Assembly: GCF_031312595.1 (NCBI RefSeq)
Contig: NZ_CP133592.1
Span: forward strand, 2,666,001 to 2,730,000
Reading direction: 5' to 3'
From: Methanolobus sediminis
GTDB lineage: Archaea; Halobacteriota; Methanosarcinia; Methanosarcinales; Methanosarcinaceae
DNA: 64,000 nt
Part shown: piece after piece, positions 22,991 to 57,792 of the stretch
Layout: each line of letters starts with the position of its first letter
Numbering within the stretch: the first letter of the stretch is position 1
Notes under the pieces: model-generated
What the model was told of the DNA's origin: nothing
The model's database searches: none
The model's input: the letters and a program-made list of their open reading frames with translations, nothing else
Position numbers and translations under genes: made by a program

Positions 22991-23077
22991 ACCAGCTATA
23001 ATAAGACTTAAGTAACTTAATTGTTATTATCTGGTGTTCAAAACCAACATGACCGGCATTCCACTACTATTCTAACT

Positions 23078-23161
23078 GCGAGGGTTGCCCAGCTGGTCAA
23101 AGGCGCCGGACTTAAGATCCGGTATCGAAGGATTTCGAGGGTTCAAATCCCTCCCCTCGCA
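23078..23161 (+). tRNA. tRNA-Leu (UAA)
   Basis: Acceptor stem gcgaggg pairs with ccctcgc. The anticodon stem ccgga/tccgg encloses cttaaga, giving anticodon TAA. A long variable arm and the T-loop gttcaaatc are present. The 84-base type II structure with no encoded CCA fits leucine. tRNA-Leu 3' ends are known casposon targets in Methanosarcina. Confidence 0.95.
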
Positions 23162-23670
23162 TCTGGTTTTTGGGTAATAGGTATCCTGAATATTAGATAC
23201 TCAGAATTTTAGAAAGTTTGTGTCTTACTTAAATCTCGGTACTTTATTAATTAATATCTATACATAATAAATATACATATATTTTAAAAAACAAACAATT
23301 TATATGTAGATACATCGTATATATTTTTGTGGGTACTTTTAGATATTTTGCTTGATGCATAAATGAAATAAATTTGTGGGAGAGGGTAAATCATAATCTA
23401 TCAATGGTCTAAAATAACTTAAAAATAAGATCTTAAAATTCGGATAAAATAATCCTTTAATTCCAGAAGTAATGCGCTGGGTGGATTTTTAGTATTGCAA
23501 CAAATGTACATAGTTGTACATATCTAATTTTGCTATCAAACTAATATCCGGATTTGAGATTTATTGAGACCATTCTATGTACAACTTACCTCTAAATCTC
23601 ATTTGATGAAAACGAATCATGATAAAAACACATCACAAAGTCAAATTAAGAACTGAATTTGGTGTCTATA
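23162..23670. promoter_or_regulatory. AT-rich upstream region of the giant surface protein, with TGTACA dyad
   Basis: No gene is seen. A 7-bp dyad atgtaca-tagt-tgtacat lies at 23504-23521, with a third half site atgtaca at 23577-23583. The spacing and symmetry look like a regulator-binding site cluster upstream of the surface-protein gene. TATA-like words such as aatttatatg lie near 23300. Confidence 0.4.
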
Positions 23671-26600: not shown

Positions 26601-29600
26601 ATATGTTGCTAAGCATTACAGAGCTATGCAATATTTTAATGCCTTAAATCCCATTGTCATAAATTTGATGGAAATTCCCCATATATATAGGCTTATCAAA
26701 TATGATACTTCATCTGAATTTGGCTCTGATGATACAGATTATCCTGCAATACTCATTGCTAAAGAAAATCATCCTCTTTTGCAGGTATCTCCTACACTTG
26801 GAACCGATATTCGTGGAGACATTAGTGAAATTGATTACAGCAAAACTCTTTACAAAATGGGAACACTGATGCCTTTAGGATATACTTATTATCCTGGACT
26901 TGATATCGAACGTGAATATGAAATCTGTACTCTTACTGTACACATAGGTCTGGACAAATTTAATGCTGAAGCCTCTTTTCCTGAAAATTTCTACTTTAAA
27001 GCAGGAATTTCCCGGAATGAAGAAGAAGTCAAGAACGAAATATATTGTGGCCGAAATGGAAAGTATTCGTGGACTTCATTCAAATATTATTTGCTAAAAC
27101 AAACTATAACAATAAATGAAAATTTGGGTTATCAAAAAATAAGTGGAGTAGAAGATAAAGCTCTTAAAAGAGTAAACTCAATTCCCTTAATTCCAAATAG
27201 CTGCAAAATGCTAATCAAAGAAATGGTAACAGGATACTTTGATGCGCTAACTCTAATATGTGCACCCCATGCCCTCATTTCAGAAAATGAAGTATTGCAG
27301 TATGTGCTTGAACCAAGTAGTGCCCATACTTTACTTTCAGATACGCTTAATAAATTAAGCACAGAAGATAAAACCGTCTCGGAAATAGTAATATATCAAA
27401 ATGAGAAGTATCCAGGCAAGGTAGCACTTATAAATGGTGCAATTTCGGTTATATCTGAAGTTTTCAGCGAGATTGACTTGGCATCATCCGATAAATCTCC
27501 TTATAGTGTAACTCCTACTTTGGAAGCAGAATCACATGTATATGACTATGTAGGAGCCTCGGACAACATCAATTATATTCTATTGATGGATGATATTGTT
27601 ACAGAAAGTACAATTTTTGAATCAAAGGTAGAAAATGGTGCTTTTGATTATAAGGATGCTCTTGATTTAATAGGCAAAGGGTTGGGTTTGTATGAAAAAG
27701 ATAGTGGTACAACTGATAAAAAATACAAAGAGCTCTCTAAAAAAAGAGATAAAGCTGCTAGACTGGCTAGGCTAGCTTGTAAAGCTGGATCTGCAATAAG
27801 TAGTTATGAAGAAGCTCAGGAAGCAGCAACTTTCAATGCAAATCAACTCTTTTACATAGGAGATCCTTATCTTACAGGTTATGATGATCCAGTATCAAAT
27901 ATAACCGTAGATCCTCTTCCAGATACGATCAAAATCGATTTTTCATCAAAGCCGAATAGTGCTGATTTCATGGGTACGACATTCATATTTCCGAATGTTA
28001 CATCATTTGAAATGACAAACGTCACTTCAAAGGTCATTTTAGAGGATTGGTTGCCATCTTCAGGCTTACCTAAAACCCAGGTAATGACAATCTCCATATT
28101 CCATCCATCGAACCAGGTAATAGATGGGATTAACTATTCACTTTCAAATGAAACAGTAATGGAAAACATCACATTGCCAGTCGGAGCTGTAACGATCGAA
28201 AATAGTACAGTCCCCGGACTCATGGACAATCTTACTGGATATCCATCCTATAGAATGATGATGGGAACTGAAGATCTTGGAAATATCAGCCATACAGTTT
28301 TGAGAATATTCCCTACAATATATTATCCAAATAAAACATTAGTATATTATGAGGATATAGATGTCACCCTGAATGTAAAGAACGTCACATTGCCTGATAT
28401 TGATGTGCATCTTGATTCATATCCGAACATTATAGGGGTAAGGAGTGGTAATACTAGCAGTGCAATATTAAGATTCTACAATGATCTTTACTCAACAGAT
28501 AATGCTACGGTCAAGGTCGTTTTCAATTCATCATCAGATATGACCATTGATGGAATAAATGCTTCATTGCCGCTATCTCTGGAACTGGGAACATCTTCTG
28601 ATGATTATTACAGAGAAATACCTGTTAACATAACCATACCTGAGGTTAGCACAAAAGAAACTTTCTACATGAATGTAACACTGGAGTATTTTGATGGTAA
28701 CGATACAACCAGCAAATTGTATTCAATACCTGTAATCGCAATTCCTGAGAACATGACTGACCTGGAAATAATTGATGTGGATTTCCCTGAAGAATTAGAG
28801 GCATATCACACATACAACGTTTCAGTATCAATCAAAAATTCCGGTCAAAACACTGTTGCATTTGTTCCAGTGAAGCTCTTCCTTGATTACAATGAGACAT
28901 CAGAAACCACATTAAATGAAATAAAAGTCAATGAAACATGTGTTGAGTATTTCAGTTTCATGCCGACTACAACCGGAGAACATAATTTAACAGTTGTAGT
29001 TTCACCTTCGCCTTATGAACTAAATCTCGAGAATAATTATTATACTGAATTATTCGATATTAAAACGGTAATAACGGTTGATAGTAGTGGCGGAGGAGAT
29101 TATACTTCAATAAACGAGGCATTGGAAGCCTCGATTGATGGATGTACTATTGTAGTCTATCCCGGAGAATATAATGAGAATATATACGTCGATAAGTCAG
29201 TAACAATACTATCGGCGTCAATTGATCCAACAAATACAGTTGTTAAAGCAGCTGAACCCATGAACCCTGTATTCCATCTAGTGAAAAATGATGTAACAAT
29301 AACAGGTTTTGGCATCACGAACTCAAATAATGCAGGCATATATCTTGATAATGTGCAGGAATGTACTATAAGCTGCAATAACATAGAATCAAATGGAAAC
29401 GGAATCATCCTGAACAATTCCATAGATAATAATCTTGCTGAGAACAGAATAGCAGATAATAGTGATATAGGTTTGCAAATATCCGGATCAAATGGTAATA
29501 TCATCGATTCAAATATTTTTACAGATAACAGATATGGACTAGATTTAACATATTCTGACAAGAACAAGGTAAATGACTGTATTGTGTACAATAATGAAAA

Positions 29601-30699
29601 GGGCATCCTGATTGAAAACTCAAATGAAAATCATTTGACAAACAGTGTTCTTTATGAGAACGAAGAAGGTGTCTATTTTACTTTGTCTAGCAACAATACC
29701 ATGCACAACAATGCAATTACTGATAATTCCCAGGAGGGCATTGTCCTTCACAATAGTGGAAGTAACCTCATCTATAACAACTTCTTCAATAACATAGAGA
29801 ATATCGAAATCAATGGGGATAACTTCTGGAATACCACCATGGTCAAAGGCGAAAATATAATCGGTGGACCGTACCTGGGTGGTAATTTCTGGGCAACTCC
29901 AAACAATACAGGTTTCAGTCAGATTTCAAAAGACGAAAATGGTGATGGTATTTGTGATATAGAATATCAAATTACTGAAAATAACACAGATTACTTCCCG
30001 CTTACTTACATCAAAGATGAAACCATACAAGACAATAATGAAGATGAAAGCATAAATATCATTTTTGAATATTCTGAAGAACCGGAAAGCAATATTGAAA
30101 TGACAATGCTTTCAAAACAATATGTGTCAGAAGGAAAACATCTTATCTATGATTTCAGCGATGAGAACGACTGCTTGATTTCTGTAGAGTTTGATTCTAA
30201 GAAGACTGTTGGATATGTAATAACAACTGTGGATATTCTTAAAGGCAGATCCTTTTTGGTTTCAAGTTCACCTGATGGAGAAACTTACCTGAATATGAAT
30301 ATCTGTGTTGGCAATGACAATTTTTCAACATCAGAATTTATTGATAATGTAATTATTAAATTCAAAGTTGATAAATCATGGATTGCTGATAACTCAATAA
30401 ATGAAACAACCATCAGATTGAATTTGTACAATAATGGTAAATGGACTCAACTAAACAGTATTAAAGCAGACGAAGATGGGAGCTATCTGTTCTTTGAAGC
30501 AAATACACCAACATTCTCATCGTTTGCAATTACGGGAGAAGAGATTGTATATTCACCCATTGATGATAATGAAATACTCGAAAAGTCTACTGAAGAAGCA
30601 AAACAAGATTCACAAGACATTTCTGGATTTGGTGTGATTGGTGCAGCCGCAATAATATTAATTATTATATCTGTTCTGAAAAGGAGGAAAACTAATTAA
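23671..30699 (+). CDS. Giant secreted beta-helix surface protein with PGF-pre-PGF anchor region
   Basis: About 2340 residues. ATG 23671 is preferred (GGTG 7 bases upstream); TTG 23659 is alternative. Signal peptide 1-26 ends TTVSA. Three NosD/CASH-type right-handed beta-helix blocks lie at ~27-370, ~380-690 and ~1800-2110, each opened by a DYTSINEAL or DYNSIQDAV pectate-lyase-like start. The second contains near-identical 23-24-residue coils (25140-25540). Between them lie an unrecognised ~600-residue globular region (~850-1450), Ig-like segments and a CARDB domain (~1705-1800). The C-terminus is a PGF-pre-PGF domain (VDKSWIADNSIN) and a terminal helix with KRRK. Probably an S-layer-associated adhesin or sugar-binding protein. 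Confidence 0.85.
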   Translation: MVGKQTIVRILMMVIIFSTISITTVSATEITVGKNTSYDHTSILEAVAEASDGDTIIVYAATYKENIDIDKSLIIRTDSASTEACIQAADVNEPVLHITADNVRISGFEIINSSEECGIDIESVDGCTITGTTLRSNWNGIFVEDSNNTSIIGNYIFENECSGIYLLNDTNCTIEDNDLQGNYQGIEMLYSDYNIITDNTIGNNTKNGLDLFDSNNNKIKNNDETENECGIYIMMSNENNIEKNTVLKNKKGIDLSNSRFNTFSGNEIDYNQKNIIFTESNHNLIYNNIINSTGIELIGEMSNNWNISVTNGENIVGGFLLGGNYWTDSQNEGISQTCTDENHDGFCDCTYDLGENYNYDNSFNIDYLPLRKTDFITVDDDDDNNADYNSIQDAVNNASDKDTIVVFPGTYSENIDVNKELRIVSASGDPDDTIVQALNPDGHVFHVTADNVTVSGFNVSVATGSGKAGIYLDNVENNNISYNVLSNNSIGIYLVSCSNNTLADNTATNNDYGIHLSSSGNNMLTNNTAEYNDIYGIHLVSSGNNTLNGNTAEHNNNYGIHLVYSSNNMLTGNNAVDNDGHGIYLQSSSNNTLTGNNVADNNYGIWMIYSSKNTLNYNNIAHNDLGIRISASVNNIICVNDFLNNNDTDYTYNYLEEVGYLYNDSLYIGYIGNYYSNYKAADKNNDGVNDTAPYALIDLSENYQLTSNPIQSITIEGEHINPTSLTTTDSKTFPIKIGESYKITISTIKSTEIDNISLKVYDSNGTKLTTSFEVNRSDNDYILNFSVNETEQEVGSSGDIEIILQNINVSGTVVEEYKKIAPIIFTFFEFKENDDGLYEIFPDKNGTGSTVVIASPEFEQEFVTEYWTDEGLSSVEIDKKLFNLACLQTVALNEIVKKWPDSTIQIYDKDVAQATVERDIDNFRSNKKQVVIVGALPHAETSFGNLKASKAYPASYLSYTMAAEINNQNLWHENDIVYVAKHYRAMQYFNALNPIVINLMEIPHIYRLIKYDTSSEFGSDDTDYPAILIAKENHPLLQVSPTLGTDIRGDISEIDYSKTLYKMGTLMPLGYTYYPGLDIEREYEICTLTVHIGLDKFNAEASFPENFYFKAGISRNEEEVKNEIYCGRNGKYSWTSFKYYLLKQTITINENLGYQKISGVEDKALKRVNSIPLIPNSCKMLIKEMVTGYFDALTLICAPHALISENEVLQYVLEPSSAHTLLSDTLNKLSTEDKTVSEIVIYQNEKYPGKVALINGAISVISEVFSEIDLASSDKSPYSVTPTLEAESHVYDYVGASDNINYILLMDDIVTESTIFESKVENGAFDYKDALDLIGKGLGLYEKDSGTTDKKYKELSKKRDKAARLARLACKAGSAISSYEEAQEAATFNANQLFYIGDPYLTGYDDPVSNITVDPLPDTIKIDFSSKPNSADFMGTTFIFPNVTSFEMTNVTSKVILEDWLPSSGLPKTQVMTISIFHPSNQVIDGINYSLSNETVMENITLPVGAVTIENSTVPGLMDNLTGYPSYRMMMGTEDLGNISHTVLRIFPTIYYPNKTLVYYEDIDVTLNVKNVTLPDIDVHLDSYPNIIGVRSGNTSSAILRFYNDLYSTDNATVKVVFNSSSDMTIDGINASLPLSLELGTSSDDYYREIPVNITIPEVSTKETFYMNVTLEYFDGNDTTSKLYSIPVIAIPENMTDLEIIDVDFPEELEAYHTYNVSVSIKNSGQNTVAFVPVKLFLDYNETSETTLNEIKVNETCVEYFSFMPTTTGEHNLTVVVSPSPYELNLENNYYTELFDIKTVITVDSSGGGDYTSINEALEASIDGCTIVVYPGEYNENIYVDKSVTILSASIDPTNTVVKAAEPMNPVFHLVKNDVTITGFGITNSNNAGIYLDNVQECTISCNNIESNGNGIILNNSIDNNLAENRIADNSDIGLQISGSNGNIIDSNIFTDNRYGLDLTYSDKNKVNDCIVYNNEKGILIENSNENHLTNSVLYENEEGVYFTLSSNNTMHNNAITDNSQEGIVLHNSGSNLIYNNFFNNIENIEINGDNFWNTTMVKGENIIGGPYLGGNFWATPNNTGFSQISKDENGDGICDIEYQITENNTDYFPLTYIKDETIQDNNEDESINIIFEYSEEPESNIEMTMLSKQYVSEGKHLIYDFSDENDCLISVEFDSKKTVGYVITTVDILKGRSFLVSSSPDGETYLNMNICVGNDNFSTSEFIDNVIIKFKVDKSWIADNSINETTIRLNLYNNGKWTQLNSIKADEDGSYLFFEANTPTFSSFAITGEEIVYSPIDDNEILEKSTEEAKQDSQDISGFGVIGAAAIILIIISVLKRRKTN
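25140..25540 (+). repeat. In-gene tandem repeats encoding beta-helix coils
   Basis: About six 66-72-bp units with recurring words such as ttccggcaacaacatgctgac and tacggcatacatctggtt encode GIHLVSSGNNTLNGN-type coils. The unit similarity is higher at DNA level than elsewhere in the gene, so unit number could change by recombination. Confidence 0.7.
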
Positions 30700-30874: not shown

Positions 30875-32047
30875 TCAACCGTTTGCAACAAGTTTCTCCC
30901 ACTTATCCAAGCGTTCTTTGTTATGAGCATTAAGCGTAAAAGGCTTATCAGCCTTCGCGTTTTTCTTCATGTAATGCAAAGTACCTTTAGAGAATCCTAG
31001 CTTTTTCCAGTCTGAATACGAAATACTGAGTATTTTCTTTCGTATGTCGTTTGTGTCCTGTCGTGTTGTCTCATACTGAGGGACAATGAAATCAATGTCC
31101 TTTCTTTTGTCAGTTAAATATTGAGCTAATTCTCTAGTCTTCAGGAACATGACATAACTCCACATTGTCATATTCCCTTTGTAACTAACTCTCTTATTGA
31201 ACCATAGATTGATCTCTTCAGTCAGTTTCTTAGCCCCTGTGGGCCTCAAGCGCAAGGAATAACTTTCAGTTCTAATGAAATCTTTCTTCTCCATGCAATC
31301 TCTTTCTATTAGACTTAAAACTGCGAGATCCACAAGGAACCTGAAAGGTTCTTGTAAGTCGTAAGCTAGACTATTCTTGCCAGTATTCATTTCATGCAAA
31401 AAACCCACGTGGAGATCTAACCCCACAGCGTTGATGGCCCGGAGGGCCTCTGCCTCTAGCAGAGCGTAGCCATAGTTAGGCATAGTGTTTACCATGTCCC
31501 CTGCCCCGTTGGGCCTACGGCTCGAATCAATTCTTGATTCATAATCATATTTATCAGGAATGGCTTTTGAGAACTCGTTCCAATATTTGTAGGCTACTCC
31601 ACCTTCAACACCCATTATTTCCTTGATGGATTTTGCTTTCTTTAGTTTCTCAAAGTCCTCTGTAAAATCGTAGTCAACTGAAAGATATCTTTGTTTGAGA
31701 TAATCAAGCACTACTTGAGATTTGTCAAACTTAGCCTCAATGAAGTTCTTTGCTATTTTGACTCTTGCTTTCTCTTCCTCAAAAGCATGGTACTGAGCAA
31801 ACCTTGTCTTGACATTAGTGCTTTCAGGTGGGAGCATTGTAGTTAATAGCTTACCATCCCAGTTGAGAATTGATATCTGGACATTGTGTTTTATCAACCA
31901 TCGGATAGCATCAAGTGTGAGATTTCCGTTCTGACCATAGATAATAACACTATCAATATCCATTCTCTTTGGAGAGAATACATATTGTTCAGTGTCATCA
32001 GCCTTGAGATATTTGTGATAGCAGTACATTTTGCATATTCGGTTCAT
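30875..32047 (-). CDS. cas1: Solo Cas1 integrase with C-terminal helix-turn-helix
   Basis: 390 residues. The N-terminal domain has DIDSVIIYGQNGNLTLDAIR, then LIKHNVQISILNWDG. The catalytic domain carries the Cas1 metal ligands Glu148 (GVEGG), His218 (GFLHE) and Glu233 in AYDLQEPFR. An extra ~60-residue tail (~335-390; SDWKKLGFSKGTLHYMKKNAK) looks like the DNA-binding HTH found in casposases. No cas2, cas4, effector, PolB or CRISPR array is in the window, so this is a cas1-solo gene. The ORF is intact and catalytically complete. The first 21 codons lie in a ~130-bp segment repeated at 43.1 kb and, more decayed, at 40.5 kb. It may act as a transposase or integrase. Confidence 0.9.
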   Translation of the reverse strand: MNRICKMYCYHKYLKADDTEQYVFSPKRMDIDSVIIYGQNGNLTLDAIRWLIKHNVQISILNWDGKLLTTMLPPESTNVKTRFAQYHAFEEEKARVKIAKNFIEAKFDKSQVVLDYLKQRYLSVDYDFTEDFEKLKKAKSIKEIMGVEGGVAYKYWNEFSKAIPDKYDYESRIDSSRRPNGAGDMVNTMPNYGYALLEAEALRAINAVGLDLHVGFLHEMNTGKNSLAYDLQEPFRFLVDLAVLSLIERDCMEKKDFIRTESYSLRLRPTGAKKLTEEINLWFNKRVSYKGNMTMWSYVMFLKTRELAQYLTDKRKDIDFIVPQYETTRQDTNDIRKKILSISYSDWKKLGFSKGTLHYMKKNAKADKPFTLNAHNKERLDKWEKLVANG

Positions 32048-32117
32048 AGCTACAAGCTCAAATGGTGAATGATTGGAATTATTTTTAAAATCAATTCATA
32101 GTCACTTAATGCATTTC
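31985..32117 (-). repeat. Repeat copy A: cas1 5' end plus upstream flank
   Basis: This block covers the first 21 cas1 codons and about 70 bases of upstream DNA. It is about 90-95% identical by eye to 43049-43183 and partly similar to 40457-40550. Identity stops sharply at gcatttc (about 32117 and 43183), which may mark the upstream boundary of a mobile unit. Read on the + strand, the same block encodes LEIFVIAVHFAYSV and YKLKW, the C-terminus of the small ORFs at 40.4 and 43.0 kb. Confidence 0.7.
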
Positions 32118-34359: not shown

Positions 34360-34452
34360 ATTGAAAAAATCAGCACAGATCTACATGAAAAAGAATATGA
34401 TATTATTGGTTTCAAAACAGGGGATTCAACCGTGTGGATTGAAACCCTTTAA
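34360..34452 (+). pseudogene. Orphan C-terminal gene tail (~30 codons)
   Basis: The frame after a stop at 34357 reads IEKISTDLHEKEYDIIGF then KTGDSTVWIETL and stop, which looks like real protein but has no start or upstream part. It overlaps the 3' end of the metallophosphoesterase fragment on the other strand. Probably the tail of a lost gene; family not recognised. Confidence 0.35.
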
Positions 34453-34992
34453 CTCTACTTTATCGTCGATGATCTCGATATATTCCAGCTTATGTTCGTC
34501 ACCAAATCCCAAGCTTCCGGTATTTGCAACCCTTCTGCCGTCATCCACATATGCATCATGAGTATGTCCGTATATCAGATACTGTTCAGGACGCATGTGT
34601 AACTGGAAATGTCTCGTATCTGATCCGGCAAGATCCCTCATTTCTTTAAAAATATTGTTCTTCAGGTAGTTCCTGATCCTTCTTTCAGGTGGCTGTCGCA
34701 TGGACATGAATGCTGACCTGGGTTCACTTGGAAATTTCTTCAGGTCGTCCCATAAAGAGCGTTTGGACAGTATATTATCCCATAGTTTGTCGGCTGCATT
34801 GCCTGTGATATGGCTGGCAAGGCATATTTGCTCGCAGAAAGTCTCATACACCTTCATGGATCGGTAAAAAGGATTAGACAGCACCTCTAACTGGTATCCG
34901 TGGAAAAAGAAGAAATTCAGTTCCTTGCTCCTTATCACTGCGTGTTTTTTGATTTTGAATGCCAGGTCTTTCTTTAGCTCTCGGGAAAAAAG
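34426..34992 (-). pseudogene. Metallophosphoesterase, C-terminal fragment of a split gene
   Basis: The frame is open from about 34992 (RELKKDLAFKIKKHAVIRSK) to the stop at 34426. It contains the family's C-terminal metal-binding GHTHDAYVDDGRRVANTGS, but no DxH, GD or GNHD motif, so it cannot be active alone. An in-frame stop lies just upstream at about 34994. The matching N-terminal fragment with SDVHLG and LLGDI is on the + strand at 42802-42930. Original gene order is restored if the 35-42.9 kb segment is inverted, although a middle part of about 80-100 residues is missing. Confidence 0.75.
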
Positions 34993-34995
34993 TAC

Positions 34996-35108
34996 TTATT
35001 TTCCAAGAAAAACCAATTGAAAAGAAAATTATTGATTTTGATAATTTTGGTAGAGAATTTACTAACAAAAAAGATTTGCTAAGACTAATAACTGATTATT
35101 TTAAATAA
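34996..35108 (+). pseudogene. Orphan C-terminal gene tail (~37 codons) at a rearrangement junction
   Basis: The + strand frame reads FQEKPIEKKIIDFDNFGREF then TNKKDLLRLITDYFK and stop. It looks like the C-terminus of a protein whose front has been lost exactly where the metallophosphoesterase fragment starts. Family not recognised. Confidence 0.4.
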
Positions 35109-35149
35109 ACTTATTTTAAATTTTATATTTGTACGTTAACTCTATAGAA

Positions 35150-35180
35150 GCGTACACTTTTTTCGCCTTGTATATATCCC
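35150..35180 (+). repeat. 31-bp exact repeat, copy 1
   Basis: Starts gcgtacac and ends tatatatccc; identical over 31 bases to 60192-60222 on the same strand, 25 kb away. Read on the minus strand both encode GYIQGEKSVR, so they may be fragments of one lost coding sequence. It directly borders the duplicated block starting near 35212. Confidence 0.7.
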
Positions 35181-35211
35181 AGCACCTGGTTTTTGGGATA
35201 TATAACTCTAA

Positions 35212-35445
35212 TTATGGCAACGCTTTTGCATAAAATGCACATAACCTCGTTTTTATTCCACCTTGTAATTTTTACACATCAATTAATTAAAAGAGATAAC
35301 ACTGTTTACTTTTACATATAATTATTTTAGATAATATATTATAGTTTAAAATCAATAACATATTGTGGACTAATAATCTACTATATGAACATTTTAAGGA
35401 GGAGTGGGAATGTCAGATGCCGTAGGTTTTGTAGTAGTGTACAAT
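35212..35445 (+). repeat. Duplicated promoter/leader block, copy 1 (functional EthD gene)
   Basis: This block matches 38066-38315. Shared parts include gggatatata, ctctaatt-tggcaacg, taattaaaagagataacact, aatcaataacatattgtgga and the aggaggagtg RBS with the first codons MSD. Its left end is the decayed start of the ~150-aa family gene on the minus strand (KSVAIIRVIYP). Here it drives the intact EthD gene. Confidence 0.7.
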
Positions 35446-35724
35446 AAACCAGACGATACTAAAAAATTTGATACGCGATATCAGGAACATTTGGGTTTGT
35501 TTAATAAGACTTTTGGGGACATCGTAGAAAATACGAGAATTTTAAAGTTAGATGATGAAATATTTTACCAATTCAGCATAGTAGAATTCAAACCTGGTAC
35601 AGACTTTGATGCTTTGATGAATTCTTCTGAAATGAAAGCTGTGATTGGAGACGTACTGACATTTGTTCCCGAAGACAAAGTCAAGCTTTTGCCAATAACA
35701 CAAGCTCTCCCTTGTTCACAATAG
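35410..35724 (+). CDS. EthD-like dimeric alpha/beta-barrel protein
   Basis: 104 residues. ATG 35410 is chosen because GGAGG at 35399-35403 is 7 bases upstream. Ferredoxin-like alpha/beta pattern: VGFVVVYNKPDDTKKFDTRY, a conserved HLGLF, a FYQFSIVEFKPGTDFDAL strand-loop-helix, and VIGDVLTFVPE. EthD-family proteins are small accessory or degradative enzymes. A strong hairpin sits on the stop codon, and an isochorismatase-fold hydrolase follows 86 bases on. Its promoter block is duplicated at 38.1 kb. Confidence 0.7.
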   Translation: MSDAVGFVVVYNKPDDTKKFDTRYQEHLGLFNKTFGDIVENTRILKLDDEIFYQFSIVEFKPGTDFDALMNSSEMKAVIGDVLTFVPEDKVKLLPITQALPCSQ

Positions 35725-35733
35725 TGAACAAGG
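35710..35733 (+). terminator. Hairpin over the EthD stop codon
   Basis: A perfect 10-bp inverted repeat, ccttgttcac with gtgaacaagg around aata, followed by tttaatta. It may terminate most transcripts or protect the mRNA 3' end. Confidence 0.65.
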
Positions 35734-35810
35734 TTTAATTATGCATTTTTACTGTGTTAAACTGTTATAGTAAAATGAATATCAACTATAAGGCTTAATG
35801 GGGTATACAA

Positions 35811-36437
35811 ATGACAAATGTAAGGAGAGATAGCACTGCATTCATTATCGTGGATGCGCAGAACTTCGTTCTTCATGAGAAAGGAATTGCTGCAAAATGG
35901 GGAGTATGGAAAATTGCCCGTGAAAAAGGTATTGTGGAGAACACGGTCAAAGCCATTGAAAGATTCAGGGCAGAAAAGATACCTATAATCTTCGTAAATA
36001 TGGAGCTGCGACCTCAGATATCACAGGCGCTAAATGCGAACCTGCCTGATATAGATTTTTGGAAACCGATAAAGGGACTGGATTTTACAAAAATAACCCG
36101 CGAAGAAGGAGAATTTCAGGGAAAGGTCATCGAACAATTCACACCTCATCCTGAAGATCTCATAGTCGCAAAACACCATACGATGAGTGGTTTTCACGGA
36201 ACAGACCTTGACAGGATACTCAGGTCTCTACACTATGATACCCTGCTCTTTGGAGGTGCCATTACAAACCTCTGTGTTGAAGGGACTGTAAGGGGAGCTT
36301 TTGACAGAGGATATAATAATATTGTCCTGAGCGATTGCGTTGCTTCAATTAGTGACGAGGCACAGAATTTTGCCATGGAATTTGTATTTCCGAAATTTGG
36401 CAGGGTTTGCACTTCAGAGGAGCTTGAGATCTTGTGA
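35811..36437 (+). CDS. Isochorismatase-fold cysteine hydrolase
   Basis: 208 residues with the family's catalytic triad in place: Asp (IIVDAQNF, ~15), Lys (DLIVAKHHTM, ~122) and Cys in GGAITNLCVEGT (~156), plus the cis-peptide region. Members hydrolyse amide or enol-ether bonds (nicotinamidase, isochorismatase, biuret or carbamoyl hydrolases). Pairing with the EthD protein suggests a small catabolic or detoxification unit; substrate unknown. Confidence 0.85.
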   Translation: MTNVRRDSTAFIIVDAQNFVLHEKGIAAKWGVWKIAREKGIVENTVKAIERFRAEKIPIIFVNMELRPQISQALNANLPDIDFWKPIKGLDFTKITREEGEFQGKVIEQFTPHPEDLIVAKHHTMSGFHGTDLDRILRSLHYDTLLFGGAITNLCVEGTVRGAFDRGYNNIVLSDCVASISDEAQNFAMEFVFPKFGRVCTSEELEIL

Positions 36438-36480
36438 GGAAGATCTTCTAATAAAATTGACAAAAAATGTGGGGGAAAAT

Positions 36481-37419
36481 ATGACTGACGGAGATGTGAC
36501 TGACAACAATAAAAAAGGGAATGACACTAATAAATTACAATGTCGGTATTGTATTGTACTGATGACAATTTTGTTAATGCTCGCAGGAGGTACACTTTAT
36601 TATTTTAGTACAAACTCTAGAGCTTCTGAAATTTTACTCTGTATTCTGCTTAGCATTAGCGTGATTGCACTTCTATTAGCTCTCACCTTTGCGGCTTCTA
36701 TCTTTAAGTGTCTTGGAATGAATAGTCCTAAGGAAGCTCTTGGTTTACCCAAAGGTAGTGTACGGGCCATAATTGCATTGAGTCTCATACTCATATTTAT
36801 GATAAGTTCTGTGTTTTTCTTTACGCAGCTCTCTTATCCGAGACTTACTAATGAGATAGACTTTTCACAAGCGGAATATGATAATCTCTCGAAAGAATCG
36901 ATTTTTTACTCCTATCCACATTATGTTAATGCAACGAACGAAACGCGATATAACGTTATGTTAAAAAAGGAACCAAATAAGGACAGTGTAGATATTGCAA
37001 AACAGATCATTACAACCATAAGCACGTTGGTCGTTGCAGTTGCTGGTTTTTACTTTGGTACGAAATCTGTCTCAATAGCCAGTGAAGCTGCAACGGGTAA
37101 GGAAATCGAAACAGGTCCTGATCCTCTTATTCGTGATATAGGCCCCAAAGAAGGCAAACAAGATGAATCGATACCAAACTTCACGATTACTGGAAAGAAT
37201 CTAGAAGCGATAAAGGAGGTAAGACTCGATCACATTGAAAAAGATTATTCTATGAAGTTCGGAGCTGAAAGTATCATGTTAAATCCTACAAAGGTTATAT
37301 TCACATTGAAAATACCCACAGACGCTCCTATAGATAAGTATAATGTGGTTGTTGTTAATGATGAACAAGTAGAGGATTGCTTTAAAGCTGCATTTAAAGT
37401 TAAGAACAAGGAGGATTAA
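36481..37419 (+). CDS. Membrane protein with C-terminal IPT/TIG-like domain
   Basis: 312 residues from ATG 36481 (GGGGG RBS at 36471-36476). The frame is open back to 36340, but that part only overlaps the isochorismatase gene. Helices at ~22-40, ~47-70 and ~95-115; the LGLPKGSVRAIIALSLIL segment is a motif I have seen in other archaeal and bacterial membrane proteins. Then a ~60-residue loop, a fourth helix with VVAVAGFYFGTKS (~180-200) and a beta domain (~220-310; PNFTITGKNLEAIKEVRL). Function unknown. Confidence 0.6.
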   Translation: MTDGDVTDNNKKGNDTNKLQCRYCIVLMTILLMLAGGTLYYFSTNSRASEILLCILLSISVIALLLALTFAASIFKCLGMNSPKEALGLPKGSVRAIIALSLILIFMISSVFFFTQLSYPRLTNEIDFSQAEYDNLSKESIFYSYPHYVNATNETRYNVMLKKEPNKDSVDIAKQIITTISTLVVAVAGFYFGTKSVSIASEAATGKEIETGPDPLIRDIGPKEGKQDESIPNFTITGKNLEAIKEVRLDHIEKDYSMKFGAESIMLNPTKVIFTLKIPTDAPIDKYNVVVVNDEQVEDCFKAAFKVKNKED

Positions 37420-37652
37420 ACATCGGATGGTGGCACAAGTTCTTAAAAATAATTAATTTTGGCGATATGAGGGTGTTATATTCACCTCATAATCTTGGCT
37501 CTGTAGAAATCATCATTTGAATAATAAGCGCAACCGTGATATACCTGTCAAGGTTGTGCATTAATATCTTTAACTTGACTTCTTTTTCTTGATTACGGAT
37601 AAAAGATTTATTCAGTTATATTCTCTCACATAATAAAAAGCGATTCTAAACA

Positions 37653-38132
37653 TTATTTAAAATTCCCCTCCAACACCTTCACCGCTCCATGTCCATAATT
37701 CAGCTTCTTCCCTTGCCTAATTTTGTCCTTAATCCTCTTCAGTGTACTCCCATGATTAATCCCCATTGGAAGTACATCTTTAGGTTCTAGAGGAAGCACC
37801 CATTCATGAAACTCTTTAATGTTAAGATATGTCTCAATCTTATTACCTTCCAGTTCTTCAATTTCAACCTTGTTTGCCTCCTTGCCAATATACACACAGC
37901 CTTTAGGTTTCAAGTATCGCCTTTGTAGAACTCCAACATTCCCTTTAAATTTGGCTTCAGGATGATCTATGTAATCTAGGAACATATCGCTTAATGGCTT
38001 CCAATATTTTCTTCCCTGAAATTCATCTCCTGTATTGTAATCTATGAACTCTTTTTCAATTGCTGGGATATATACAACTCTAATTTTGGCAACGTTTTTG
38101 TAAGTAGAATACACAACCTTTTTTGAATTCAT
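37653..38132 (-). CDS. Unrecognised ~150-aa family, full-length copy 1
   Basis: 159 residues. The core KYWKPLSDMFLDYIDHPEAK, then VGVLQRRYLKPKGCVYIGKE, is followed by a variable stretch and a C-terminal helix-turn-helix-like tail (PMGINHGSTLKRIKDKIRQG). The tail parallels the Cas1 C-terminus (KLGFSKGTLHYMKKNAK). I do not recognise the family. Relatives in the window are an intact copy at 57793-58242 and remnants at 43.3, 45.3 and 56.3 kb. The start ATG 38132 lies inside the duplicated block shared with the EthD promoter. A DNA-binding role is inferred only from the tail. Confidence 0.6.
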   Translation of the reverse strand: MNSKKVVYSTYKNVAKIRVVYIPAIEKEFIDYNTGDEFQGRKYWKPLSDMFLDYIDHPEAKFKGNVGVLQRRYLKPKGCVYIGKEANKVEIEELEGNKIETYLNIKEFHEWVLPLEPKDVLPMGINHGSTLKRIKDKIRQGKKLNYGHGAVKVLEGNFK

Positions 38133-38315
38133 ATTTTTAGTTCTAGATTTAACTTAATTAAAAGAGATAACACTGTTTACTTTTATATTAAATTTTCATA
38201 GATATTTTATAATACTTTTAAATCAATAACATATTGTGGAAAAATAATCCATAATATGGATATTTTTAGGAGGAGTGGAATGTCAGATAATATAGGATTT
38301 GTAATAGTGTAATGT
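38066..38315 (+). repeat. Duplicated promoter/leader block, copy 2
   Basis: Second copy of the block at 35212-35445, including the GGAGGAGTG ribosome-binding site. On the minus strand it encodes the N-terminus of the ~150-aa family protein; on the + strand it carries the EthD promoter. The two copies bracket a 2.9-kb unit (EthD, isochorismatase, membrane protein, ~150-aa gene). Confidence 0.7.
38280..38312 (+). pseudogene. Truncated EthD start (10 codons)
   Basis: After a good RBS the frame reads MSDNIGFVIV then stop, matching MSDAVGFVVV of the intact gene at 35410. Nothing further of EthD remains. The retained promoter probably now transcribes the downstream membrane protein gene at 38358. 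Confidence 0.65.
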
Positions 38316-38357
38316 AAAACTGAAAACAAGTCAGATATTAAGAATATGGGGGTAAAC

Positions 38358-38996
38358 ATGACATCAGAGGCTATTAAACCATGGGGTATGGAGCCCGAAA
38401 ATGTAAATGGTGATTCCGCTGATGCTACACCTGCAAGTAGTAATTGCAAGCGGCGTGTAGCTATGAGAATTTTTTGGGCAGCTGTCCTTGCCAGTATTTG
38501 TTTTATTTATTTAGCAGTATCTGGGTGGCTAGACTTGGGAATACCTTATTATGTAGTTGTCTTTAGCATAATTGGTGGACTAATGTATCTTTTTGCTTCT
38601 ACTGCAGGCGAATGGGAAACAGCTAAAGAAAAACTAAAAGATGATCCAAATAAATTAAATAAATTCAATAATCAAAATTTTTACGAGAAATTAAATGATT
38701 TCGGCATTCAAAGAAAAGCTTTGCGTGTACTGGCAGCTCCTCTACTGGCAATTGGAATATACCTGCTATTTGATCTGATATTTGTTGGCTTTAGTACAAC
38801 AACCGAACCAGCAAATATCACCGAGAATTCAAGCATATTGGAAATAGTAACTGAGATACAAAATGCCGGTGATTCTGAAAAGATTATCATGATGAAAGCA
38901 GGCATATCTTTTCTGGTCGGAGCTTTTGTGAAACAATTCCTTACTTTAATCCGGGCATTAGCAGATGAAATAGGCGGAGGTAAAAAGCAGAAATAA
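38358..38996 (+). CDS. Four-helix membrane protein, unknown function
   Basis: 212 residues from ATG 38358 (GGGGG 5-9 bases upstream; an in-frame ATG at 38346 is possible). A polar N-terminal 30 residues, then helices at ~35-55, ~60-80, ~120-140 and ~175-195, with a charged loop (EKLKDDPNKLNKFNNQ) between helices 2 and 3. No family recognised. It is driven by the second copy of the EthD promoter block and ends at a strong terminator. Confidence 0.55.
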   Translation: MTSEAIKPWGMEPENVNGDSADATPASSNCKRRVAMRIFWAAVLASICFIYLAVSGWLDLGIPYYVVVFSIIGGLMYLFASTAGEWETAKEKLKDDPNKLNKFNNQNFYEKLNDFGIQRKALRVLAAPLLAIGIYLLFDLIFVGFSTTTEPANITENSSILEIVTEIQNAGDSEKIIMMKAGISFLVGAFVKQFLTLIRALADEIGGGKKQK

Positions 38997-39014
38997 ATAG
39001 ATTTTTTACTTCAT

Positions 39015-39041
39015 AAAGAAGGGTAATATTTTCCCTTCTTT
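39015..39041 (+). terminator. Terminator after the four-helix membrane protein
   Basis: A perfect 9-bp inverted repeat, aaagaaggg with cccttcttt, 9-base loop. Confidence 0.65.
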
Positions 39042-39075
39042 GATTAATTTTCAAGAAACTTATCTATTAACAAAT

Positions 39076-39287
39076 TCACTGCCTCCTTTCCCACATCTCC
39101 AACCTTTCCTTCACATGAGCACTCAGACTAAACGGTTTATCAGCTTTAGAATTCTTTTTCATGTACTCAACTTTGCCATTCATCATAGAATTGAACTCAG
39201 CAGTGAGTTTCCTTGCTCTGAAGGTCTTAATTTGAGAGAATAGTTTTCTGCTCTGGTGAAATCTAAGAATAAGTTTTTCAACAGAAG
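39076..39287 (-). pseudogene. cas1 remnant, C-terminal, with internal deletion and frameshift
   Basis: Read on the minus strand it gives DFTRAENYSLKLRP, a frameshift, then RARKLTAEFNSMMN, then YMKKNSKADKPFSLSAHVKE and RLEMWERRQ with stop. These match intact Cas1 segments RTESYSLRLRP, GAKKLTEEINLWFN and YMKKNAKADKPFTLNAHNKE. About 65 residues between the second and third segments are missing. Confidence 0.8.
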
Positions 39288-39321
39288 ACTTTATAGAAAC
39301 ATAAATAGTGGATGAGAATAT

Positions 39322-40041
39322 ATGAAAATGAATGGCAATACAATATTGATCACTGGTGGAGCTACCGGTATTGGATTAGCCCTGGCCGAAGCTTTCGTAC
39401 AGGCAGGTAATAAGGTCATCATCTGCGCAAGGACCGAAGAGAACCTGAAGCAGGCTAAAGAAAAGCTCCCTCAGCTGCATATAAGAAAGTGCGATGTTTC
39501 GAAAGAAGAAGATTGTGAGGCATTATATGCCTGGGTAACTGCTAATTTTAAGGATATGAACGTCTTGATAAATAATGCAGGTATCCAGCGTATGATCGAC
39601 TTCAGGAAAGGGACTGAAGATCTTATCAGGCATCGTATGGAAGACGGAGAGGACGAGATAGATGCTAACCTCAAGTCTCTTGTGTATATGACTGCACTTT
39701 TTACCCCTCATCTGATGAAGCAAAAAGAAGCCGCGATTATGAACGTTTCTTCGGGACTTGTATTTTATCCCATGCCTGCAGTTCCTATTTATTGTGCAAC
39801 CAAAGCAGCGGTCCACACGCTCAGCATCTTGCTCAGACAACAACTGGAAGGCACTTCAGTCAAAGTATTTGAGTTGATCCCGCCAATGGTAGACACAAAC
39901 CTCGATAAAGGTGCAAGGAAAGCCAGAGGACAGACATATTTCGGCATCACGACTGCCGAGCTTGTCCAACCTACAATGAAAGCCTTTGAATCAGATGAAT
40001 ACGAGATACGCGTGATCGACCCAAAGCTGGCATCAAGATAA
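39322..40041 (+). CDS. Short-chain dehydrogenase/reductase (DltE-like)
   Basis: 239 residues with the NAD(P)-binding TGGATGIG (~10-17), the NNAG motif in VLINNAGIQ (~88), a catalytic Ser in MNVSSGL and YCATKAA as YxxxK (~155). Length and sequence resemble the DltE-type SDR group. The substrate is unknown. It begins just past the cas1 remnant and may be cargo or a bystander. Confidence 0.88.
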   Translation: MKMNGNTILITGGATGIGLALAEAFVQAGNKVIICARTEENLKQAKEKLPQLHIRKCDVSKEEDCEALYAWVTANFKDMNVLINNAGIQRMIDFRKGTEDLIRHRMEDGEDEIDANLKSLVYMTALFTPHLMKQKEAAIMNVSSGLVFYPMPAVPIYCATKAAVHTLSILLRQQLEGTSVKVFELIPPMVDTNLDKGARKARGQTYFGITTAELVQPTMKAFESDEYEIRVIDPKLASR

Positions 40042-40153
40042 AAAAGACGGTTGTCGATACATATTTGTTGATAACGTTAATTTGATAAGTTGATTAGATT
40101 TTTTACAGAATAATGTATATAGTCATCTCTCTTTTAATAAAAAGAGTGAGAAG

Positions 40154-40339
40154 ATGACTCAAAATAAAAGATATTTGGAGTGGGGTATTAGTTTTTGGAT
40201 TGGAATTGGTTTAATGAGCATAATAAATGTTTGGAAAATTAGCCAAAACCGTAATCCAATTTTATATTCTGAGATTATGTTTGGGATTTCTATAATTTTT
40301 ATAATTGTAGCTGCAATTTTAATAAAAACTAAAAAATAG
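40154..40339 (+). CDS. Small two-helix membrane protein
   Basis: 61 residues, two hydrophobic segments (~11-26 and ~40-57) and a basic C-terminus (IKTKK). GAG RBS about 6-8 bases upstream. No family recognised. Followed 9 bases later by another small hydrophobic ORF, so the two may be one unit. Confidence 0.45.
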   Translation: MTQNKRYLEWGISFWIGIGLMSIINVWKISQNRNPILYSEIMFGISIIFIIVAAILIKTKK

Positions 40340-40348
40340 GCTAGTATA

Positions 40349-40549
40349 ATGAAGGGTAATCTCATGATCAGTTTCCCGAAACATATGTTGATACGGATTT
40401 CCTTAATACTGCTTCTTATAAACCTGATAACGTTCTACGGGGTTGCAAAGGTACCTTTAGGTTTTGTTCTCAGCGTCATCATCCTTGAGATATTTGTGAT
40501 AGCAGTGTCATTTGCATATTTGGTTCATATATACAAGCTTAAATGGTGA
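40349..40549 (+). CDS. Small hydrophobic ORF, copy 1, antisense to a cas1 5' remnant
   Basis: 66 codons (or 62 from ATG 40364, the start shared with copy 2). Two hydrophobic stretches: LIRISLILLLINLITFYGV and LEIFVIAVSFAYLV. Copy 2 at 42950-43135 keeps the frame with many differences, several silent (ctg/cta, ttc/ttt, gca/gcg), which hints at a real protein. However, the last third is the complement of a cas1 start with an internal stop on the cas1 strand (NQICK-stop-HCYHKYLK). It may therefore be a chimera of an unrelated small gene and cas1 5' DNA. Confidence 0.4.
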   Translation: MKGNLMISFPKHMLIRISLILLLINLITFYGVAKVPLGFVLSVIILEIFVIAVSFAYLVHIYKLKW

Positions 40550-40550
40550 C
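40457..40550 (-). pseudogene. cas1 5'-end remnant (copy B)
   Basis: Minus-strand reading gives MNQICK-stop-HCYHKYLKDDDAEN, matching MNRICKMYCYHKYLKADDTEQ of intact Cas1. Similarity to cas1 coding ends there. Confidence 0.65.
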
Positions 40551-40572
40551 CCATCTTCATCCATTCAAAGAA

Positions 40573-42276
40573 TCATTCTTCTTGCAAGTTCCTGTAAGCT
40601 TCCAGGACATCCTGGACTGACTCGAAGATATGGTCCCTGCCGATCATTTCAGTTATACCGTCCCTGTCAAGCTCATTCATAACAGGCTGCACCACATCAC
40701 TTAATACAAGAGTGATATTCATTTGTTGCAACTGGGTGCATACATTTTTAAGCGCCTCTATAGAAGTGAAATCGATATCTTCGATGTTCGTTGCAGAAAT
40801 ACAAAACCATTTAAGTCCCCCATCTTTGTTGGCAAGTGCAATTATTTCTTCTCTGAAACGGGTTTCGTTAGCAAAGTAAAGGTTTGAGCCAAAACGGTAT
40901 ATCAACAGGCCCTTAACAGCTTGCTGCCCTTTTTCGAGTGGAACTGTCCTCATGGCTCCTCCCTGTTTTGGAACAAGCAGCAGGTTAAGTGGTCGGTAAC
41001 TGTGGCGCAGGTGAGCAATAACCGAGAGTACTATAGATATCACAATTCCCTGCTCAACACCTATAACTACAACTGTCATAGATGTTATCAGGGCAACGTT
41101 GAATTCGACAGGACGCTGTCTGTAAAGAGCAGCCATTCCTTTTGTATCAATAAGTCGCAGACCAATGAGAAATACCACCGATGAAAGTACGGCAGTGGGC
41201 AAATAGGCGAATGGCCTGGTAAAGAACATCAGAACTATCACAACAATAAAGACAGTTGTGAGCTGGGTAAGCTGGGTACGCCCTCCGGCACTTCTGACCA
41301 TTTCGGTTTTTGTCGGACTGCCATTGACAACAAAAGTACCTGATATTCCTGCTGCTGCATTGGCAAGGCCAAGTCCGATGAGATCTGAGTTTTCGTTGAA
41401 AGTGTCGGAAAACTTCATAGCATAAGCCCGGGACGTTGCAGCACTCTGGGCGAGGATGATAATAAAACAGGCCGCTGAAATGTTAAGAAGCTTTGGAATA
41501 TCTGAAAGTGTAACCTGAGGCAAAGCAAGATGAGGCAAACCCCCGGGTATCGTATTAAGAATAATGATCCCGTAAGAGGAAAGATCGAACATCCAGCTTG
41601 CAGTAATTGCCCCGACGATTGCTATTAGTGCACCGGGGAATTTACTCCCAATCCTTTCGCTAAGAACTATAACCACGATTACAGATAATGAGACTAAAAG
41701 CGTGGGAACGTTTATAAGAGCCAGGGTTTTTAATAAAGATGAGGGTAAAGATAAAAGATGAATTAACGTTCCATCTAATCCAGTGGCTATCCCTAACATC
41801 CCACCAAGCTGTGAGATCGAGATACGGATACCTACGCCGGATAGAAATCCTATCAGGACTGTATGAGAAAGGAAATCAGCCAGAAAACCCAGTTTCAGCA
41901 TGCCTGCAATAAGGATCAAGATTGCTGCAATCAGAGCGATCATCCCGGCATATGCAACGTATTGAGGAGATTCCGGCACTGCCATTGTTATCAGTCCGCT
42001 CGCTATTATCGCCGCAGTTGCAGAATCGGCTCCGACTACAAGATGGCGGGATGAACCGAAAATAGCAAAAGCTAACATAGGAAGCAGAATTGTGTAAATT
42101 CCGGTAACTAAAGGCATACCTGCAATCCTGGTGTACCCCATAACTTCAGGAATGGCAAATGCTGCGAATGCGATTCCTGCAGTGATTTCCATAGGTATTT
42201 GTTTAGGACTGGATGGTAATGCTCCTTGTAAAAGAGGAATGTGAAGGAACTTTCCCGGATTTTTTGCAGGCTTCAT
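40573..42276 (-). CDS. SulP/SLC26-type anion transporter with STAS domain
   Basis: 567 residues. The sulfate-transporter core spans ~1-430 with about 12 membrane segments and SulP hallmarks such as AFAIPEVMGYTRIAGMPLV and GFLSGVGIRISISQLGGMLG. A cytosolic STAS domain follows (~450-560; DIDFTSIEALKNVCTQLQQM). Such carriers move sulfate, bicarbonate or related anions. It lies within the segment bounded by the split metallophosphoesterase pieces, between cas1 remnants. Confidence 0.93.
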   Translation of the reverse strand: MKPAKNPGKFLHIPLLQGALPSSPKQIPMEITAGIAFAAFAIPEVMGYTRIAGMPLVTGIYTILLPMLAFAIFGSSRHLVVGADSATAAIIASGLITMAVPESPQYVAYAGMIALIAAILILIAGMLKLGFLADFLSHTVLIGFLSGVGIRISISQLGGMLGIATGLDGTLIHLLSLPSSLLKTLALINVPTLLVSLSVIVVIVLSERIGSKFPGALIAIVGAITASWMFDLSSYGIIILNTIPGGLPHLALPQVTLSDIPKLLNISAACFIIILAQSAATSRAYAMKFSDTFNENSDLIGLGLANAAAGISGTFVVNGSPTKTEMVRSAGGRTQLTQLTTVFIVVIVLMFFTRPFAYLPTAVLSSVVFLIGLRLIDTKGMAALYRQRPVEFNVALITSMTVVVIGVEQGIVISIVLSVIAHLRHSYRPLNLLLVPKQGGAMRTVPLEKGQQAVKGLLIYRFGSNLYFANETRFREEIIALANKDGGLKWFCISATNIEDIDFTSIEALKNVCTQLQQMNITLVLSDVVQPVMNELDRDGITEMIGRDHIFESVQDVLEAYRNLQEE

Positions 42277-42417
42277 ATTCGTTTTAATCTCCTATTAATA
42301 ATTCATCTATAATCTTTACTTTTATTCCTTCAACAAACTTCTGGTCATTTTACGGAAGAAGTTTTTATTTTACCTTTCCATGGCTCTTGATTCTCATAAG
42401 CTTGATATTGAGCAAAT

Positions 42418-42525
42418 TAAGTCTTAACATTGATACTCCTAGGAAGGAGAATAGTAGTTAGTAACTTATCATCCCAGGTTAGAAAAGTAACCTGACTCTT
42501 GATGTTATTAGGTGCTTGATTAAAC
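42418..42525 (-). pseudogene. cas1 remnant, N-terminal domain fragment
   Basis: Minus-strand reading APNNIKSQVTFLTWDDKLLT then TILLPRSINVKT aligns with intact Cas1 KHNVQISILNWDGKLLT and TMLPPESTNVKT. Flanks have decayed. It lies between the SulP gene and the metallophosphoesterase N-terminal fragment. Confidence 0.75.
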
Positions 42526-42801
42526 TATAATTTTAAACCAGATAATGACATTTAACAGATAAATAAATATGAATACTTCCATTCAGCCTTGTCCTGACCG
42601 CCTGTGAAAGCATTGGAGCAGCACGGGGTATTCCAAGAAAAATAAATGTGCAAGCTTTGGCAATATATTAATAAGGATGATGTGCAACGGACATTGTCAC
42701 AATGGTTTCGACCGCATTATGAATAAAAATTTCTGACCGCGTGTTATAACAGGATCCTGTTGAACTCAGTTCATGCTGCAGGATCAAAAGAGGAGGAATC
42801 T

Positions 42802-42930
42802 ATGTCTATAGTAGCTGTCTCTGATGTGCATCTTGGTATGAAGGGAGCAAAAGAAGATGAATTTACAGAATTCGTAGATTATTTGAATGAAAGGAAGGTC
42901 AAACACCTTGTACTGCTGGGGGATATTTTA
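42802..42930 (+). pseudogene. Metallophosphoesterase, N-terminal fragment of a split gene
   Basis: A good RBS (aggaggaatct) precedes ATG 42802. The frame encodes MSIVAVSDVHLGMKGAKEDE and LNERKVKHLVLLGDI: the DxH and GD metal motifs of the calcineurin-like family. After LLGDI the sequence changes to the repeated block beginning near 42933. The C-terminal half is at 34426-34992 on the other strand. Confidence 0.78.
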
Positions 42931-42932
42931 GT

Positions 42933-43183
42933 AAAGGACGGATTACCTCATGATCAGTTTTCCGAAACAGATGTTGATACGGATTTCCTTAATACTACTT
43001 CTTATAAACTTGATAACGTTCTACGGGGTTGCAAACCTACTGTTAAGTTTTGTTCTCAGCGTCATCGGCCTTGAGATATTTGTGATAGCAGTACATTTTG
43101 CGTATTCGGTTCGTAGATACAAGCTCAAATGGTGAATGATTGGAATTATTTTAAAACTCAATTCATAGTCACTTAATGCATTT
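42933..43183 (+). repeat. Repeat copy C: small hydrophobic ORF fused to cas1 5' end
   Basis: Similar to 40355-40550 over its left part and to 31985-32117 over its right part. It carries a 61-codon + strand ORF (42950-43135, MISFPKQMLIRISLILLLIN onwards) and, on the minus strand at 43050-43135, a cas1 start whose ATG is now ACG (TNRIRKMYCYHKYLKADDAEN). It is inserted in, or fused to, the broken metallophosphoesterase gene. Confidence 0.65.
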
Positions 43184-43276
43184 CTTTTTAGGATATCTAT
43201 AACTATAGCTTTAAACTCTTAGTTTGAGAAACACAGCCGTCCAAAAGAGCTTTTTATTCACATCACTTACATTAAA

Positions 43277-43543
43277 TTAAGTTAAAGTGCTAATTATCCA
43301 TTTCACATTCCTGCTCTTAAAATTCAAATCCTCTCCCTTTGCTTTTTTCTTCAAATAAGCCAACGCACTCCTATGCTTGATTCCGAGTTGTATTGCTAAG
43401 CTTCTTGAAATAGTGCGGACCTTGTTTAATCCCTTCTGTTTCATAATCAAGGAAAGAATCATAAACAATACTCTGTGAGCATTAGAAAAAGGAGCTAATG
43501 GTTTCACTGCCTTTCCATTTTCTTCAAGGATCTGAAATCCCAC
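43277..43543 (-). pseudogene. ~150-aa family remnant fused to its HTH tail
   Basis: An 88-codon ORF. The part NKVRTISRSLAIQLGIKHRS joins a segment also seen, out of frame, in the 56.3-kb remnant (NKVHIISNNLAGQL) to the C-terminal tail GIKHRSALAYLKKKAKGEDL of the family. The conserved core (YIDHPEAKF, VYIGKEANK) is missing, so this is an internal-deletion derivative. It could still be translated. Confidence 0.6.
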
Positions 43544-45091: not shown

Positions 45092-45550
45092 CTGATTATC
45101 ACCTTTTCATTCAGATTTCATTTTTAAGCTTATAGAGTGGAGTAAACATTTAATTTTGCTCAATAATGCTTCAGGAATTCTAGGAGTTGCGAATGATTTC
45201 ACTCATTTTTGCAGTATCTTCAGTAAATATTTGTTGGTGCAGTGTTTGAGTGGAAAGATAAAACTCCGTTTTCAAGTCTCCTTCCCCTGTCATATCTTCC
45301 AATTATTTTAATGTACTCATCTGCTTAATTCCAATCTTGCTTGATTCAGTAAGTATAAAACCAAATATGTATTGAGTATCTTGCAGGCTTTTTTGAGCGA
45401 TATCTTATTTTAATGAAAAAGAACACCTGCTAACATTTGGATATTACGGAAATATCCTGAGAAACGATCTTTACCCTTATTTATCCTAGTAAAGTCTTTA
45501 ATAAAGAATATAACTATAATAAGAACGGAAAAATAAAAAAGAAAAGGAGC
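45092..45550. other. Intergenic region holding a decayed ~150-aa family tail
   Basis: On the minus strand 45257-45385 reads YIFGFILTESSKIGIKQMST then LK-stop-LEDMTGEGDLKTE, matching the tail of the intact copy at 57.8 kb (YVLNITPAEARKIGIKYRST, then LKKLKERVQEEDFNLNTKE). No intact gene. The remainder is AT-rich. Confidence 0.55.
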
Positions 45551-49215: not shown

Positions 49216-49237
49216 TAGAAAAACAGGCTTGCCGAAA

Positions 49238-57660: not shown

Positions 57661-57792
57661 AGTCTAAATCCCACTAAGAAGTGAATATATATTTGATTGA
57701 CGATTTAAAAAATAATTTATTTTGTTTAATGTTCAATAAAATCTACAGTGTATGTCTAATCAGTTCTAAGAGATATTGTTTGTTCAGAAGAG

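Follow-up and report, generated by a model that had tools for sequence, protein, structure and literature searches.

The closest described systems are the family 2 casposons of Methanosarcinales. The casposon of M. mazei targets the last 4 bp of tRNA-Leu, which lie within a 14-bp duplication beginning CGCA (PMC6977970), and tandem, decaying casposon arrays have already been published (PMC4046053, PMC10359463), those of M. burtonii and M. psychrophilus being tandem or decaying (PMC4046053). An analogy has been drawn with Tn7 islands (PMC4046053), which resemble casposon arrays in that one target is hit repeatedly while older copies decay, although their enzymes are unrelated to those of casposons. 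Here we describe a 64,000-nt stretch of the Methanolobus sediminis genome (contig NZ_CP133592.1, positions 2,666,001 to 2,730,000, forward strand), referred to as the window, in which two pieces of a metallophosphoesterase (MPE) gene lie on opposite strands.

The tRNA-Leu island and its casposon remnants

In relatives, the islands at the corresponding position contain a module made up of PolB (about 890 aa), a small HNH-like protein, a protein of about 213 aa, an HTH protein and Cas1 (about 400 aa). The HNH-like and HTH genes were called by position, size and reading, and the 117-aa protein gave no Pfam HNH match; PolB is intact in genomes G060, G061 and G063. The module occurs three times in tandem in G060 (L125-L126, G060:C1:939518-963670), where the middle element shows paired, perfectly matching ends and a 14-bp duplication, with CGCATCTAAAATTT on each side. 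A 15.2-kb element at tRNA-Leu in G039 (L123, G039:C2:183458-198680) has perfect 33-bp inverted ends, is apparently intact and shows the 14-bp duplication CGCACCTGCGCATT, which begins with the last bases of tRNA-Leu. Of the 27 genomes of the genus, 18 contain the terminal-repeat pattern, and the reversed pattern used as a control gave no match in any of them. On their predicted proteins and ends the relatives' elements are casposons, which share with family 2 the module of Cas1 and PolB type, including putative HNH-like and HTH genes, the terminal inverted repeats and the 14-bp target duplication described for M. mazei (CGCA, the final 4 bp of tRNA-Leu, followed by 10 bp), as well as tandem elements with one target and degraded neighbours. 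G039 carries a further pair of ends (G039:C1:424490-433471) that are 9 kb apart and have the terminal repeat seen in the window.

In the window, the relatives' homology to the left flank ends at 23163-23218 and the tRNA-Leu site itself is unoccupied. The terminal repeat at 35150-35180, the target copy at 35181-35194 and the left end starting at 35195 form a tandem joint. Unlike family 2 casposons, the window has remnants and single ends: the predicted Cas1 (TIGR00287, E 1e-59; PF01867, E 9e-65) is without its N-terminus and the putative PolB is present as fragments only, so that the window holds casposon remnants and no casposon. All the casposon ends are single (35150, 60192 and the left ends at 35195 and 38065), and the remnants lie in both orientations, cas1 on the minus strand and PolB on the plus (57790-58239) and minus (37653, 43259) strands. 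Neither HNH nor HTH genes were found in the window, and a simple scan of it returned no CRISPR-like array. A further difference from family 2 is that the island also holds MPE debris and ordinary host-type genes (SulP, SDR, isochorismatase, DUF347, methyltransferase). Judged from its sequence, the remnant field represents a hypervariable island next to tRNA-Leu, packed with putative decayed casposons of the family 2 type. The features are collected in Table 1.

Two other parts of this region were noted. Directly after tRNA-Leu, positions 23659-30699 hold an open frame of 2346 aa in which right-handed-helix-like segments are repeated, and this part of the island showed no similarity to the other islands compared. 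A second terminal repeat at 60192-60222 is identical over its 31 nt to the repeat at 35150; the 14 nt beside it (TATTTTAATGTGCG) were interpreted as a target of the CGCA type lying on the other strand, the PolB end at 57790-58239 (+) lies about 2 kb away, and the site was read as the remnant of an oppositely oriented casposon. The segment at 55.6-60.7 kb is absent from G062.

Table 1. Features of the tRNA-Leu island in the window; Cas1 and PolB assignments are predictions from sequence similarity.
Feature	Coordinates	Strand	Remarks
tRNA-Leu (taa)	23077..23163	+	ARAGORN; island begins directly after
Predicted casposase-type cas1, long open frame without first ~25 residues	30875..32001	-	5' end replaced by X1
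X1, small-ORF repeat copy	31989-32117		replaces cas1 5' end
MPE C-terminal fragment, last ~178 codons	34426..34963	-	frame open; HGYQLE and GHTH
3' end of unrelated cargo gene (last ~47 codons) and short tail	34964..35149	+	fused to MPE C-terminal break; 88% to G050:C45:1547-1745
Casposon terminal repeat GGGATATATACAAGGCGAAAAAAGTGTACGC, 31 nt	35150..35180	-	identical to casposon repeats in G039, G057
14-nt target-site copy AGCACCTGGTTTTT	35181..35194	+	12/14 to tRNA-Leu 3' end CGCATCTGGTTTTT
Left end of second casposon-like element, tandem to first	35195..35441	+	79% to 38064-38311
Putative casposon PolB C-terminal remnant	37653..38063	-	66% aa to residues 761-877 of G060 PolB
Third left-end copy	38064..38311	+	abuts PolB remnant
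Other putative Cas1/PolB fragments	39085-39177, 45368-45490, 49127-49234, 56152-56410		
X2, small-ORF repeat copy	40342-40549		same strand as X1, X3
SulP transporter block	40486..42388	-	91% to G062:C12:78338-80263
Putative cas1 internal remnant, residues 71-107	42384..42494	-	left of N-terminal MPE fragment
Upstream region of broken MPE gene	42688..42801 (~114 bp)	+	DNA similarity to type-I upstream regions
MPE N-terminal fragment, residues 1-43	42802..42930	+	DxH and GD motifs
X3, small-ORF repeat joined to N-terminal break	42930..43184	+	88% to X2, 95% to X1
Putative PolB C-terminal remnant	43259..43543	-	right of X3
Putative PolB end remnant	57790-58239	+	

The two metallophosphoesterase fragments

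Both halves reported on opposite strands by the first-pass annotation are real and map to non-overlapping parts of a 273-aa MPE gene. The N-terminal fragment, read as MSIVAVSDVHLG...HLVLLGDI, was 70% identical at the protein level to an intact Methanolobus relative (E 1.8e-13), and the C-terminal fragment, read on the minus strand as ...YGHTHDAYVDDGRRVANTGS... with its end at 34426, was 64% identical (E 1.7e-14). The latter had been extended to 34992, which is too far, since its MPE similarity ends at 34963 and the 30 nt at 34964-34993 match, without a single difference, the 3' end of an unrelated 529-aa gene in G050. The DNA ahead of the N-terminal fragment (42688-42801) matches the sequence upstream of the type-I MPE genes of G059, G062 and the source genome (G000) at 74-82% identity.

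The fragments share the DxH, GD, H and GHTH motifs with the calcineurin-like metallophosphoesterases (PF12850/PF00149) that form a group of 271-273 aa in Methanolobus, and they are closely identical to the intact genes of 12 other Methanolobus genomes, from which the window gene differs in being in two pieces and in the absence of the GNHD block. Compared with these intact genes, 52 residues (156 nt) including the GNHD motif are absent between the fragments, fewer than the 80-100 first estimated; in the source genome no other copy of this middle part was found, the sole match being the intact MPE paralogue kept elsewhere (G000:C1:741138). The DxH, GD, GNHD, H and GHxH motifs do not stand in one chain, the GNHD block being gone and the rest divided between two strands. 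Judging by its predicted motifs, the broken gene lacks the GNHD metal-binding motif and is a pseudogene, which would not be expected to act as an enzyme. The dN/dS of the C-terminal fragment (0.11-0.22) is uninformative on the break, because it mostly reflects the history before it.

DNA trees were built separately for the N-terminal (129 nt) and C-terminal (534 nt) pieces. Each was placed as sister to the same type-I MPE genes (G000, G059, G062), with a support of 0.77 for the N-terminal piece, which is short when taken alone, so that its placement is weak, and of 1.0 for the C-terminal piece. The earlier proposal that the halves come from one gene lineage was thus borne out, and the simplest reading is that both pieces would belong to one extra, diverged type-I MPE gene. 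A derivation of the halves from different paralogues, type I and type II, was supported neither by the trees nor by the upstream similarity; genes of the two types adjoin each other in M. vulcani PL 12/M (G062). Type-II MPE genes (L031, L035, L028 and others) stop at TAG, several of them with TAG, one Ala codon and a second TAG. The genus is known for pyrrolysine, and these endings are possibly a mere stop preference.

Break junctions and origin of the fragments

At the C-terminal break, the MPE fragment is joined to the end of the gene matched in G050. In that genome the stop of the 529-aa gene lies about 100 bp ahead of a casposon terminal repeat, and in the window the gene fragment continues into the terminal repeat at 35150-35180, the distance from the MPE piece to the casposon end being 186 bp. 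At the N-terminal break, MPE similarity ends near 42930, where X3 starts. This repeat (66 aa) is present in three same-strand copies with no others genome-wide, and two of the three sit exactly at gene breaks, X1 at the cas1 5' end and X3 at the N-terminal MPE piece; none of eight other islands contained the complete repeat, the last 20 codons of which occur in G062. The first-pass annotation had the repeat filling the break, which holds for the N-terminal side, whereas the C-terminal break carries a different fragment. Its link between the break and the cas1 remnant field stands; Cas1 and PolB remnants flank the N-terminal piece and the C-terminal piece is near a casposon end. When read from the alignments, both MPE joints showed little or no common sequence, and they resemble the products of illegitimate joining.

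Taken together, the MPE pieces are probably the debris of an extra type-I gene cut up in a decaying casposon hotspot at tRNA-Leu. A diverged extra copy would have lain in this hotspot, probably as passenger DNA, and repeated casposon insertion with illegitimate deletion would have cut it apart. The C-terminal piece would have ended up against the 3' end of a different cargo gene, adjacent to a casposon end, and the N-terminal piece against the local small-ORF repeat, and the 156 nt between them would have been lost. Since casposon remnants occur in both orientations, the interval need not have been inverted to place MPE fragments on opposite strands, and separate or oppositely oriented insertions are the more likely source of this arrangement. 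The fragments, their junctions, the colinearity and the casposon ends are directly shown; the order of events and the passenger status of the gene we infer. No relative carries MPE inside a casposon, since a search of about 8 kb around the relatives' intact MPE genes gave no casposon terminal repeat. MPE fragments were absent from eight other islands, and no complete casposon spans either MPE half in the window.

A sub-case of this explanation has MPE arriving in the island as two separate copies, for instance with casposons inserted in opposite orientations, each copy decaying to a different part. This is possible, if on balance not favoured: besides the remnants of both orientations, the left ends of the second and third elements show repeated insertion of related elements, and MPE copies do multiply, as M. 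vulcani PL 12/M has two side by side. However, it requires two copies of a gene held by no other island examined, and two source copies are indistinguishable from one because the halves have no overlap. Somewhat more doubtful is a resident MPE gene of the hotspot, not carried as cargo, that was disrupted by casposon insertion, with later deletion and translocation of one piece. The Cas1 and PolB debris on both sides of the N-terminal fragment and the contact of the C-terminal fragment with the casposon-end cargo gene would fit such a course, but an MPE gene at this tRNA-Leu locus was found in no relative.

On the preferred reading of debris in a decaying hotspot, the MPE split reflects ordinary decay, at an insertion hotspot of a kind already known. 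The useful outcome is the recognition of the remnant field as a probable casposon hotspot beside tRNA-Leu, whose content can be compared across Methanolobus genomes. The islands of the genus form a series of intact single, triple-tandem and fully decayed states, which helps to study the arrival, stacking and decay of Cas1-based transposons, a question tied to the origin of CRISPR adaptation. It seems improbable that casposon hotspots actively shuffle passenger genes and that the MPE pair is the trace of two insertions, opposite in orientation, that carried the same gene; if true, repeated insertion in two orientations at one tRNA-Leu would drag in host genes and cut them at element-linked breaks.

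Gene order and age of the break

In each of G062, G063 and G061, a single contig carries both the left flank (19.2-23.2 kb) and the right flank (starting at about 47.6-48.5 kb and reaching 55.6 kb) with order and strand unchanged, and the DNA between them is different in each genome compared. The opposite strands of the MPE halves had been explained by a single inversion of 34.99-42.93 kb. With the C-terminal boundary corrected, one inversion of 34.96-42.93 kb would have split an intact MPE gene with the loss of 156 nt at the break; reversing the interval does restore the order of the N- and C-terminal parts, both then on the minus strand, and the origin of both halves from one lineage agrees with it. 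The blocks within the interval contradict this explanation. In M. vulcani PL 12/M (G062), the SulP block has the window's orientation relative to both outer flanks and is followed by about 255 bp and then by a block matching window position 47615, and in M. vulcani B1d (G063) the isochorismatase block (35195-36455) is not reversed relative to the flanks. The colinearity was read from one genome for each block, so that each alone is one observation; among the 27 genomes, SulP is present solely in G062 and the source genome. A third argument against the inversion is that the target-site copy at 35181-35194 and the adjacent casposon terminal repeat retain the strand of tRNA-Leu.

A reversal of the interval relative to the flanks was not seen in relatives. 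The examination of intact homologues, set beforehand as a refutation, also spoke against the inversion: intact MPE lies elsewhere with neither flank, and the intact loci have no neighbour gene in common with the MPE pieces of the window. Moreover, the junction at 34964 also truncates an unrelated gene, so an inversion needs extra events anyway. A single inversion is thus very improbable, and separate insertions or insertion-linked deletions are likelier.

The age of the break was assessed by simulating neutral decay since the split from G062, with d ranging from 0.22 (one branch) to 0.44 (whole distance) as derived from the dS of the type-I MPE gene. A 178-codon piece stayed stop-free in 3% to 0.3% of the simulations (P about 0.003-0.03). 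As the 178 codons are still open, the MPE break is probably younger than the G062 split; an old inversion common to M. vulcani and then lost there was considered and is unlikely, since the open piece argues for a recent break. Finally, a repeat-rich region could mislead assembly, but the source genome consists of 2 contigs with 99.97% completeness and 0.08% contamination and the surrounding blocks are colinear with relatives, which makes an assembly or contamination artefact the least credible explanation.
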